Below are positions 4,029-5,788 of a stretch of 48,426 bases of DNA, one piece after another. The notes below the pieces were generated by a model. It was given only the letters and a program-made list of their open reading frames with translations. It was not told the DNA's origin and did no database searches. A program made the translations under genes and the position numbers. Origin of the DNA: Clostridia bacterium (GTDB lineage Bacteria; Bacillota; Clostridia; Oscillospirales; CAG-272). The stretch is from NCBI GenBank assembly GCA_017473085.1, contig JAFUNF010000024.1, positions 1 to 48,426 on the forward strand, in the 5' to 3' direction. Every line of letters starts with the position of its first letter. Positions within the stretch are counted from its first letter, which is position 1.

Positions 4029-4556
4029 ATGGAACTAAAAAACGCAATTTACAAAAGACGTAGCATAAGAAAATATGCACAAGCTCAAATTCCTCTTGAG
4101 CATATCGAAAAAATGATAGAGAGTGCCCAAATGGCACCATCCTGGAAAAACTCTCAAACTGCAAGATTTTACGTTGCCCACACAGAAAAAGCAATAGAAG
4201 AAATGAGAGATTGTCTTGCAAGCTTTAATAAGGAAAGAACAGAAAACGTAGGTGCCTTTATAGTTACCACAGTAGTAAAGGGAATAAGTGGCTACGTAAA
4301 CGATCAGCCCACACATCTTGGCAACGGCTTTGAGTGCTTTGACAACGGCTTAAGCGTGCAAAACCTACTTTTAACTGCCACCGAGCTTGGCTATGGCTCA
4401 CTGATTATGGGACTTTATAAGCCCGAAAAAATAAAGGAGCTTTTCCAAATCCCAACCACCGAGGAGGTAGTGGTAGTAATTGCCTTAGGCAAAGCCGACG
4501 TAAACCCCGACACTCCCCCTCGCTTACCCCTTGACCAAATCCTAACCATAAAATAA
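4029..4556 (+). CDS. Nitroreductase family FMN-dependent oxidoreductase
   Basis: The ATG at 4029 follows AAAGGAGA with good spacing, giving 175 residues, typical of short nitroreductases. N-terminal RRSIRKY and APSWKNSQ match the FMN-binding segments of the NfsB/NfnB fold, and the C-terminal VVVVIALGKAD fits the family's last strand. Members reduce nitro groups, quinones or enones with NAD(P)H; the substrate here is unknown. It is translated right behind the radical SAM gene (11-base gap), so the pair probably forms one operon. The downstream stem beginning at 4554 is the probable end of transcription. Confidence 0.85.
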   Translation: MELKNAIYKRRSIRKYAQAQIPLEHIEKMIESAQMAPSWKNSQTARFYVAHTEKAIEEMRDCLASFNKERTENVGAFIVTTVVKGISGYVNDQPTHLGNGFECFDNGLSVQNLLLTATELGYGSLIMGLYKPEKIKELFQIPTTEEVVVVIALGKADVNPDTPPRLPLDQILTIK

Positions 4557-4984
4557 AAAAGACGAGCATAGCGTGATGTCCTTAACGGACAAATCACGCT
4601 AACTAAGTTTGCCCTTACGGGCAAGTGAAGTTATCTTCGATAGTGAAGTTCACTTCGTGAGTGAAGTTTCGCCTAACGGCAAAGTGATGGGCAAACTTAA
4701 CTTCACTTGTGCGTAGCACAAACTTCACTGCATACGGGGTTCCCCGAAGCGAAGTATGAGCTTTGGGGGTTCGCGGAGCAACTTCACTTTTGCGATAGCA
4801 AAAACTTCACTAACAGAAAAAGAGAGGACATTACGGATTAAACCGTTTTGTTCTCTCTTTCTGCTTGTAATATGGGTTTGGACTTAGCCCATATCAGCAT
4901 TTGACTAGTCAAATGCGATGCTTGCACTTTTGTCAAGTTGCAAATTCTCCGCTAAGAACCTCACCCAATCGCTCGTCTTTTTTA
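4554..4984. repeat. Hairpin array 1, linker GTGAAGTT/AACTTCAC, inside a 14-base inverted repeat
   Basis: No gene is supported here. Outer arms TAAAAAAGACGAGC (4554-4567) and its complement (4971-4984) bound the block. Inside, linker GTGAAGTT occurs at 4625, 4643 and 4661, and its complement AACTTCAC at 4699, 4721, 4780 and 4803, each separating a small stem-loop (for example TATC-TTC-GATA, CAC-TTC-GTG, TTGTGC-GTA-GCACAA, TTTTGC-GAT-AGCAAAA). AAGTTTGCCC (4605-4614) pairs with 4689-4698 around the first half. Further palindromes include 4570-4600, 4814-4863 and a perfect 20-base palindrome at 4897-4916. The outer arms end in A6/T6 runs and could terminate transcription in either direction. Confidence 0.75.
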
Positions 4985-5105
4985 ACCCTTGCAAAGTAGG
5001 GGTCCCCAAAAAGTCGCAGACTTTTTGGGGTTCTCGTAGGGATTTCATCACAAAGTGATTTCATCCGTAAAAGACGGATTTCATTGTCGACTTATAGTCG
5101 GTTTT
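4985..5105. repeat. Short hairpin cluster with ATTTCAT linkers
   Basis: A 12-base perfect stem with a GCA loop (5004-5030, CCCCAAAAAGTC arm) is followed by small stems (ATCAC-AAA-GTGAT, CCGT/ACGG, GTCGAC) separated by ATTTCAT. These linkers resemble those of the arrays inside the pyr operon. Confidence 0.55.
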
Positions 5106-5369
5106 TGACTGCCCCACGCACAAACTAACCTAAGGGGCATCAGGAGGGGTAGAGAAAAGGCGAACGCGTGGTCGTCGGCGTACTTTGTACGGTAGAGTAG
5201 CGGTCGCCTTTAGAAAAGCAGATAAAAAGGATTTTTCTAAAGAAGACTTATGGGAAAGGTAAAACAATATATAGAAAAATCCTACCTTATAGATAGGGGA
5301 AGCAAAGAGCAAAAAAGAAAAGCAAGGATTTTCCCTGCTTTTCGTTCTATACTGCTATCTGACTGCCCC
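5106..5369. repeat. Structured repeat-like element between TGACTGCCCC direct repeats
   Basis: TGACTGCCCC occurs at 5106-5115 and 5360-5369. The interval holds TGCCCC/GGGGCA arms (5110-5139), a stem from AAAAGGCGA (5156) to TCGCCTTT (ending 5211) with an inner CGTAC-TTT-GTACG, a 12-base stem AGGATTTTTCTA with its complement about 40 bases later (5228-5286), and the pyr terminator. The reading frames here are palindrome artefacts. The direct repeats could be a target-site duplication; this is inference. Confidence 0.45.
5311..5343 (-). terminator. Intrinsic terminator of the pyr operon
   Basis: On the minus strand a 12-pair stem (5317-5343, arm GAAAAGCAGGGA) is followed by six T (5311-5316), 28 bases after the pyrI stop. 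Confidence 0.85.
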
Positions 5370-5371
5370 CA

Positions 5372-5788
5372 CTACTTAGCTTTGGTTTCACAATACAAGC
5401 AACGATAAACTCTATTTTCTTTATCGGTTAGAGTAAACACCTGGTCAAGCTCCTGCTCACAGGAGGTAATGCAACGTGGGTTTTTACAGCAAATCACGTT
5501 TACAAGCTTTTCGGGAAGAGTAACACCCTTCTTGTCAACAATCTTGCCATTTTTAATAATGTTAATCGTAACCTCAGGGTCAACGTAACCAAGAATAGTA
5601 GTATCAAGCTCAATGTCTGCATCAATCTTGATAATGTCCTTCTTGCCCATCTTTTCGCTACCAACGTTTTTGCCGATAACAACGGAGCAATCAAGAGTGT
5701 CAAGCTTTAAAAGAGAATAAAGCTCCATACCACGACCTGCTGTAATGTGGTCGATAACTATACCATTTTTAATTGAATCAATATTCAT
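5372..5788 (-). CDS. pyrI: Aspartate carbamoyltransferase regulatory chain
   Basis: A 138-residue regulatory subunit that binds nucleotide effectors and docks on the PyrB trimers. The N-terminal allosteric domain includes KNGIVIDHITAGRG, the characteristic effector-binding opening. The C-terminal zinc domain keeps all four ligands: Cys101 and Cys106 (CKNPRC) and Cys130 and Cys133 (CLYC). It is slightly shorter than the enterobacterial protein (about 153 residues) but has every recognisable part. It is the last gene of the operon, 12 bases after pyrB, with an AAGGGGG site, and the intrinsic terminator follows. Its presence implies the ATCase is the allosteric B/I type rather than the catalytic-only Bacillus type. 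Confidence 0.95.
   Translation of the reverse strand: MNIDSIKNGIVIDHITAGRGMELYSLLKLDTLDCSVVIGKNVGSEKMGKKDIIKIDADIELDTTILGYVDPEVTINIIKNGKIVDKKGVTLPEKLVNVICCKNPRCITSCEQELDQVFTLTDKENRVYRCLYCETKAK

Follow-up and report, generated by a model that had tools for sequence, protein, structure and literature searches.

The window, by which we mean the whole stretch of DNA analysed (48,426 nt from a Clostridia bacterium), carries a branched palindromic array at positions 4554–4984. This array is located downstream of a nitroreductase-family gene (an ORF at 4029–4556 matching Pfam PF00881, E 7e-27), between the end of that gene at 4556 and the stop of the convergent pyrI gene at 5372; the features described here lie on the forward strand unless stated otherwise. 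Three direct linkers, GTGAAGTT, are found at 4625–4632, 4643–4650 and 4661–4668, followed by four reverse-complement linkers, AACTTCAC, at 4699–4706, 4721–4728, 4780–4787 and 4803–4810. The small stem-loops between the linkers differ from one another in sequence. The array is enclosed by a 14-base inverted repeat, in which TAAAAAAGACGAGC at 4554–4567 pairs perfectly with 4971–4984, with 403 nt between the two arms. Constant linkers, different stem-loops and the enclosing repeat had all been described in the original prediction, and each was seen where it had been placed. When folded as DNA, the stretch reached −100 kcal/mol, compared with −48.6 (sd 4.4) in 100 dinucleotide shuffles (z −11.7), none of which folded as well. 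A CRISPR array was considered and rejected, because the linkers are found in either orientation and are separated by hairpins.

Based on the information content of 65 copies, the element proper was delimited as the 402 nt at 4568–4969. Comparison of copies identified a conserved 5′ hairpin, TAGCGTG..CTTAACGG..CACGCTA, at 4569–4601. The 5′ half of the array follows at 4600–4672 and matches the Gut-1 RNA of Rfam (RF01706) with 49.9 bits (E 1e-8), just under the gathering score of 50; at gathering threshold, the Rfam search of the whole window gave two tRNAs only. An enclosing strand, TAAGTTTGCCC (4604–4614), is complementary to 4689–4699, detected as its pairing partner by an inverted-repeat search, and shows partial complementarity to the nearby GGGCAA at 4619–4624. 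The conserved 3′ domain, represented by covariance model R1, occupies 4817–4966 and consists of a long hairpin (4819–4859), GGGTTTGGNCTTAGCCC, the GCATTTGAC hairpin and the CCGCTAAGAACNTCACCC end.

Other repeats adjoin or interrupt the window copy. Between reverse linkers 2 and 3 (4729–4779), other copies have a short hairpin (tgcatagc), while the window copy has an unrelated 40-nt palindrome at 4736–4775, which lies outside the element consensus. This palindrome belongs to a separate 38–43-nt repeat, GGGGTTCCCC..GGGGTTCNCG, with a variable inner stem, which is present again at 4999–5036; 33 copies with distinct flanks were found in the loci examined, including three in tandem with a 44-nt period at locus L068. 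On the reverse strand, 5037–5100 holds the remnant of a second array with the linker GATTTCATC (33.1 bits to Gut-1, below the cut-off), so that two different linker families adjoin in one intergenic region. Further palindromic intergenic sequence at about 5100–5370 resembles the orthologous place in a related genome (L070 in G005), where a related block occurs twice.

The array is one of many copies, in agreement with the earlier suggestion of a mobile element, which is borne out by the copy number and by the empty sites described below. In its own genome, 35 BLAST matches to a 541-base query were merged into nine places with long stretches of the element, the window included; the remaining matches were short or arose from neighbouring repeats. 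The element was detected in all 22 same-genus genomes searched; among 15 others from the order it was found in three, weakly in one. We collected 67 distinct full-length copies, with bodies of 295–505 nt and no transposase gene in them. Both flanks were available for 65; the other two were dropped from the flank tests as they did not have 40 nt on both sides. Model R1 was built on an alignment of 19 rows, comprising 14 of 19 listed stretches (three with internal insertions and two duplicates were excluded) and five found later. A later 3′-domain analysis covered 69 sources among the loci, which did not include all of the 67 elements.

Next to the element, the flanking DNA revealed the nature of the 14-base repeat. 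Conservation among the 65 copies begins 3 nt ahead of GCGTG, ends 3 nt past CACCC and falls to near zero beyond, and the ends, [T/A]TAGCGTG and CACCC[A/T][T/A]T, are sharp, without a terminal repeat common to copies. The last three bases at the two ends are complementary (ATA/TAT) in 8 of 65 copies, and the commonest pair, TTA/ATT (21 copies), is non-complementary. Outside these ends, the outer 5′ arms differ in all 65 flanked copies, and each pairs with its own right flank: the mean stem was 10.7 contiguous bp, compared with 6.29 (sd 0.17, maximum 7.06) in 10,000 flank permutations. A stem of at least 10 bp was present in 37 of the 65 copies, compared with 2.5% of cross pairs, and a stem shorter than 7 bp in five. 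An A-run is found in the left flank of 57 copies, and a T-run in the right flank of 56. The order A-run, stem and T-run is the anatomy of bidirectional intrinsic terminators. Removal of the element would leave a loop with a median of 5 nt in the 59 copies with the stem close to both ends.

In the window, the 5′ arm (A-run and GACGAGC, 4554–4567) overlaps the nitroreductase stop codon at 4554–4556 and pairs with the 3′ arm (GCTCGTC and T-run, 4971–4984). The 14-base inverted repeat is thus the intrinsic-terminator stem of the nitroreductase gene upstream, specific to this site, and not a part or an end of the array as had been supposed. Sister copies occupy dozens of other, unrelated gene ends. 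As a negative control, the 33 copies of the 38–43-nt GGGGTTCCCC..GGGGTTCNCG repeat were analysed with shorter flanks, and their own-flank complementarity was 2.48, compared with 2.37 (sd 0.12), indicating that hairpin-loop targeting is no general artefact of repeats in these genomes. A mechanical ORF listing for the 67 copies, in which apparent ORFs ending at most 2 nt from the element were taken as complementary-strand artefacts, placed 28 between convergent genes, 8 in sense only, 9 in antisense only and 22 ambiguously. This mixed orientation would fit a palindromic target, not a cis-acting element of mRNA.

At four copies, three in genome G000 and one in G040, the terminator stem is found in a sister species, identical or with a single letter changed, and closed by a loop of 5–6 nt. 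The empty sites are AAAAGACGAAGG/CCTTCGTCTTTT with the loop TCAAAG, AAATCAAGGAC/GTCCTTGATTT with ctcaca and AAAACACCCTAAG/CTTAGGGTGTTTT with aaaaat, all in G005, and AAAAAGCTTGACG/CGTCAAGCTTTTT with aaaat in G040. At the third site, the filled G040 copy has AGG for AAG; at the fourth, the filled copy is 3′-truncated and the left junction alone was tested. The supporting alignment is good on both sides at the second site only (L033/L156), lies mainly on the 5′ side at the first and fourth (L032 and L034), and on the 3′ side at the third (L118). These stems without the element indicate that, where tested, the terminators were there before the element. At the orthologous place of the window array, a comparison that the original prediction had proposed, each of the three closest relatives has a plain short-loop terminator with other stem sequences, not a degenerate array. 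A more distant relative, G039, carries after the orthologous nitroreductase gene a simple array of hairpins with TGAAAT linkers in direct orientation (L077:2030–2160), without the 5′ hairpin or the 3′ domain of the element; it is perhaps an ancestor or relative of the element's array. For one further G000 copy (L029, on C20), no clear empty site was found in the relatives, and the one match, L160, is a terminator whose loop is longer and whose letters differ. The element may produce a short target duplication at insertion; the positions beyond the element ends carry no sequence information across copies, and the empty sites compared belong to other species with diverged loops.

We then analysed the fold of the element across copies. 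The pattern of linkers and reverse linkers was detected in 63 of 67 copies and was missing from four, compared with its detection in 3% of 335 shuffled arrays. Body folding energies averaged −139 kcal/mol, compared with −94 in shuffles, and were more than 30 kcal/mol lower in all 65 copies. Dinucleotide shuffling, named in the original prediction as the control that might undo it, thus failed to give either the fold of the array or its linker pattern. Within the 3′ domain (70 aligned sequences), 16 of 31 pairs have changed on both sides, with 204 such cells compared with 58.6 in shuffles (0 of 500 as high). This signal was lost when the partner was slid by one to three columns, a comparison in which the alignment, being fitted to the structure, favours the true pairing over the slid versions. 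Judged from these substitutions, the fold of the element is kept by selection through compensatory changes.

The two halves of the array are likewise matched. The commonest 8-mer of each half, found without assuming pairing, was complementary to that of the other half at six or more of eight positions in 51 of 55 copies (12 of the 67 elements, with no word present three times in each half, were omitted), compared with 33% of all cross pairs and 10% of pairs between different linkers. At least seven linker families were distinguished: GTGAAGTT, RTGATGTT, GTTATGA, GTGAAATC, CGATAT, GTGAATTG and GTGATATT. In most copies the linkers change in concert, so the proposal that they can pair across the centre is supported both by the complementarity of the halves and by the co-variation of linkers between families. 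The exception is a chimera, L281 (JAFVZL010000014.1), with ATGATGTT linkers in the 5′ half and AACTTCAC linkers in the 3′ half, in which the linkers no longer match between halves.

Growth by addition of linker-plus-hairpin units, also proposed at the outset, agrees with a copy (L051) that carries an exact tandem duplicate of one AACTTCAC-plus-hairpin unit, and with two copies (L054 and L031) that are without some units. Several copies, L034, L064 and L067 among them, end at the internal long hairpin.

The loops of the small hairpins differ between the halves. Among 3-nt loops, TNC accounted for 72 of 139 in the 5′ half and GNA for 29 of 63 in the 3′ half, with the opposite kind found once in each; among 4-nt loops, TNNC accounted for 53 of 86 in the 5′ half and GNNA for 33 of 47 in the 3′ half. 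These loops indicate that the halves are opposite in polarity. GNA loops form unusually stable DNA minihairpins. G-T cells outnumbered A-C cells by 108 to 21, in 16 columns compared with 7, with 74 of the 108 contributed by three columns, and the plus strand folded better than the minus strand in 51 of 65 copies. Given this G-T excess and the better folding, the plus strand appears to be the working form. In equilibrium folding, the outer stem closed in 46 of 51 folds with the real body and in 88 of 102 with shuffled bodies. That the body fold preserves termination is plausible but gained no support from this modelling; as shuffled bodies still allow the outer stem, a need for the body fold to close the terminator is unproven.

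The relation of the element to Gut-1 was analysed in 33 loci. Matches at or above the cut-off were found in nine distinct places, eight of which lie inside elements with the 3′ domain downstream, a share that is biased because most of these loci had been picked for carrying the element. Two loci had been entered twice in the scans, and L090 and L259, which are one contig, were counted once. The ninth place, L274:5671–5745, is an array that lacks both the 5′ hairpin and the 3′ domain and lies within another stem, GGGCGACCT..AGGTCGCCC. No Gut-1 match at the cut-off was found in the scanned examples of the ATGATGTT, GTTATGA, CGATAT, GTGAATTG and GTGATATT linker families. In the same locus, at L274:413–790 and 904–1262, the right end of an element is separated by somewhat more than 100 nt from a gene for RNase P RNA, which is read from the opposite strand; the element there possibly sits in the terminator of the RNase P RNA.

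The element has a patchy distribution within a single order of gut Clostridia. Among 197 genomes sampled from the order, 14 were matched by model R1, which scored more than 100 bits in families f1, f11, f12, f16, f17 and f20; this search, run under strict filters, gave no match in 12 genomes that represent ten further genera of the family to which the window belongs. In a public genome collection, at least 117 stretches contain an exact copy of one 20-mer of the element. Titles among the matches listed named uncultured Clostridia, Oscillospiraceae, Clostridiales, one Ruminococcus and one Bacillota; the RGIG titles among them named cecum, colon or rectum of sheep, goat, deer or yak, and the other titles gave no sample. 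No exact match to CAAATGCGATGCTYGCACTT was found among IMG/VR viral contigs, and none to the element in the plasmid and phage collections searched. Four copies are 97–99% identical across all 371 nt, each in a different terminator. Two of these, in genus g1 (L218) and family f17 (L087, in G169), share 97.6% identity over the 371 nt. The patchy spread and this identity across two families suggest horizontal transfer of the element between lineages.

Taken together, the copy-specific outer stems, which pair with their own flanks, and the empty sites suggest that the array in the window is very probably a copy of a small mobile element (about 300–500 nt), non-coding and non-autonomous, with the apical loops of intrinsic (Rho-independent) terminators as its insertion sites. 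An enzyme acting in trans would move the folded plus strand, as RNA or as single-stranded DNA, and would recognize its target by hairpin shape and not by sequence. The terminator loop would be a nearly harmless landing place, because a compact insert that folds on itself would leave the terminator arms able to pair. The linkers would form the rungs of a central helix, and between successive rungs one small hairpin would project from either side; as rungs they would have to change together, giving rise to element families with different linkers.

Some features of the element recall an ordinary DDE-transposase MITE, whose terminal inverted repeats would be the 14-base repeat: the element is small, palindromic, intergenic and multi-copy, and its body holds no transposase gene. 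This assignment was rejected for want of terminal inverted repeats common to copies and has a very slim likelihood, as the outer repeat is a different one in each of 65 copies, the conserved ends are complementary over the last three bases in some copies only, and the stem is already present in the empty sites. The strong covariation, the G-U excess on one strand and the Gut-1 match would be expected of a primarily functional non-coding RNA, as proposed for Gut-1, with dispersal secondary and a transcribed plus strand that serves the cell or the element. We consider this reading unlikely, since copies lie both in sense (8) and in antisense (9) to the only gene that could be terminated, and since the sites are unrelated between copies and, where tested, empty in sister species.

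The remaining readings concern the enzyme, for which 17 element-bearing genomes were compared with 19 without an element match, most of these genomes being incomplete. A REP/BIME-like element moved on a folded single strand by a RAYT or another Y1 transposase of the IS200/IS605 type would account for the strand-specific fold, the hairpin at the 5′ end and the missing common terminal inverted repeats, and Y1 proteins were found in G000 and G006, where their ORFs of 258 and 273 aa have a RAYT-like size. Y1 transposases were, however, present in 9 of 17 carriers and 9 of 19 element-free genomes, showing no association, and the carriers G042, G003, G011, G016 and G019 gave no match, in a set composed mostly of incomplete genomes; we therefore regard this reading as rather improbable. 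Neither reverse transcriptases (2 of 17 carriers, 6 of 19 element-free) nor IS110-profile matches over the cut-off (4 of 17, 5 of 19) were associated with the element. Twelve IS110-profile matches lie in ORFs of about 980–1480 aa and cover only the first 55–76 profile positions; from their position at the profile start in long ORFs, we infer that they are RuvC-like domains of larger proteins. ORFs of about 1430–1480 aa that match only this RuvC-like start, as at G000:C15:24455 and similarly in G003, G004, G010, G012, G019 and G042, are possibly Cas9-sized nucleases. No recognized pair of ends lay more than 441 nt apart among 61 pairs, giving no gene-bearing version among them; such a version may exist among the 62 right ends (15 of them the alignment's own rows) and 55 left ends without a recognized partner. 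A relic or satellite of a terminator-targeting retroelement would agree with the insertion of group IIC introns at terminator motifs (PMC4424553). This origin is most unlikely, as that insertion is described after the motif and not in the loop (PMC4424553, as far as the available part of that account goes), reverse transcriptases are found in few carriers, and a group II intron at the locus itself was rejected, with no group II intron family match in 4500–5380 even at E up to 1.

Insertion of a mobile element into terminator loops thus remains our preferred reading. The element is a structured, mobile, small non-autonomous interspersed repeat in an unusual niche, and a new class of mechanism is possible rather than probable. 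Tentatively, such a class would be a folded single strand that moves from hairpin loop to hairpin loop, with no shared terminal repeats or target sequence and with terminator shape as its integration site; its body would be a branched inverted array, with GNA/GNNA minihairpins of the halves on opposite strands and concertedly evolving linkers, and Gut-1 would be a fragment of it. Integration inside a terminator hairpin was not found described in our searches of the open-access literature. Terminators are common in shape, not in sequence, at many gene ends, and an element that reads shape would therefore have very many near-harmless sites. An enzyme reading hairpin shape would be of practical interest, and the concerted change of linkers offers a natural series of compensated branched structures for folding tests of RNA and DNA junctions.

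REP and BIME sequences are, like this element, non-coding palindromic repeats in intergenic space. Their units are smaller, the element's carriers show no association with Y1 transposases, and to our knowledge nesting of REP or BIME in terminator loops is not known. The REP-targeting insertion sequences IS1397, IS621 and ISPpu9/10 also insert into an intergenic palindrome, but they target REP sequences and carry a transposase gene (PMC1525189), whereas the targets of this element share no sequence and no gene was seen in it. Group IIC introns resemble it in inserting at intrinsic terminator motifs, and differ in that they insert after the terminator and are retroelements with their own reverse transcriptase (PMC4424553); the element has no Rfam match of this kind. 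Predicted terminators are reported to flank a Porphyromonas MITE in 10 of 19 cases (PMC4596501). BOX of Streptococcus pneumoniae has conserved end modules and a variable number of internal modules (PMC3049150), comparable to the gain of a unit in L051 and the loss of units in L054 and L031. BOX has its own terminal inverted repeats, which have been compared with ISSpn2 (PMC3049150); the present element, in contrast, has no outer repeat common to copies, takes its outer stem from the host terminator, and has internal units that share the linker only. In the parts of these sources available to us, none of the REP-targeting insertion sequences, group IIC introns, BOX or the Porphyromonas MITE is described in terminator loops.

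In structure, Gut-1, with three hairpins and a constant GUGAARU-type linker between them, corresponds to the 5′ half of the element's array. Gut-1 was described as certainly an RNA, found in human gut only, and most likely a non-coding RNA unaffiliated with mRNAs; the portion of that description available makes no link to a mobile element (PMC2864571). The original prediction had held that the array matches no repeat class known to it, which is not quite right, as the 5′ half lies a tenth of a bit below the cut-off of a known family. The phrase 'Gut-1 RNA' was not found in the open-access papers searched, and the main text of a later survey of human-microbiome RNAs, in the part available, does not name it (PMC8040213). 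In the copies analysed here, by contrast, the Gut-1-like stretch makes up one half of an inverted array that belongs to a mobile element, in gut Clostridia of which many are from ruminants and deer; if this is true, an orphan family of structured RNA would be explained as part of a mobile element.
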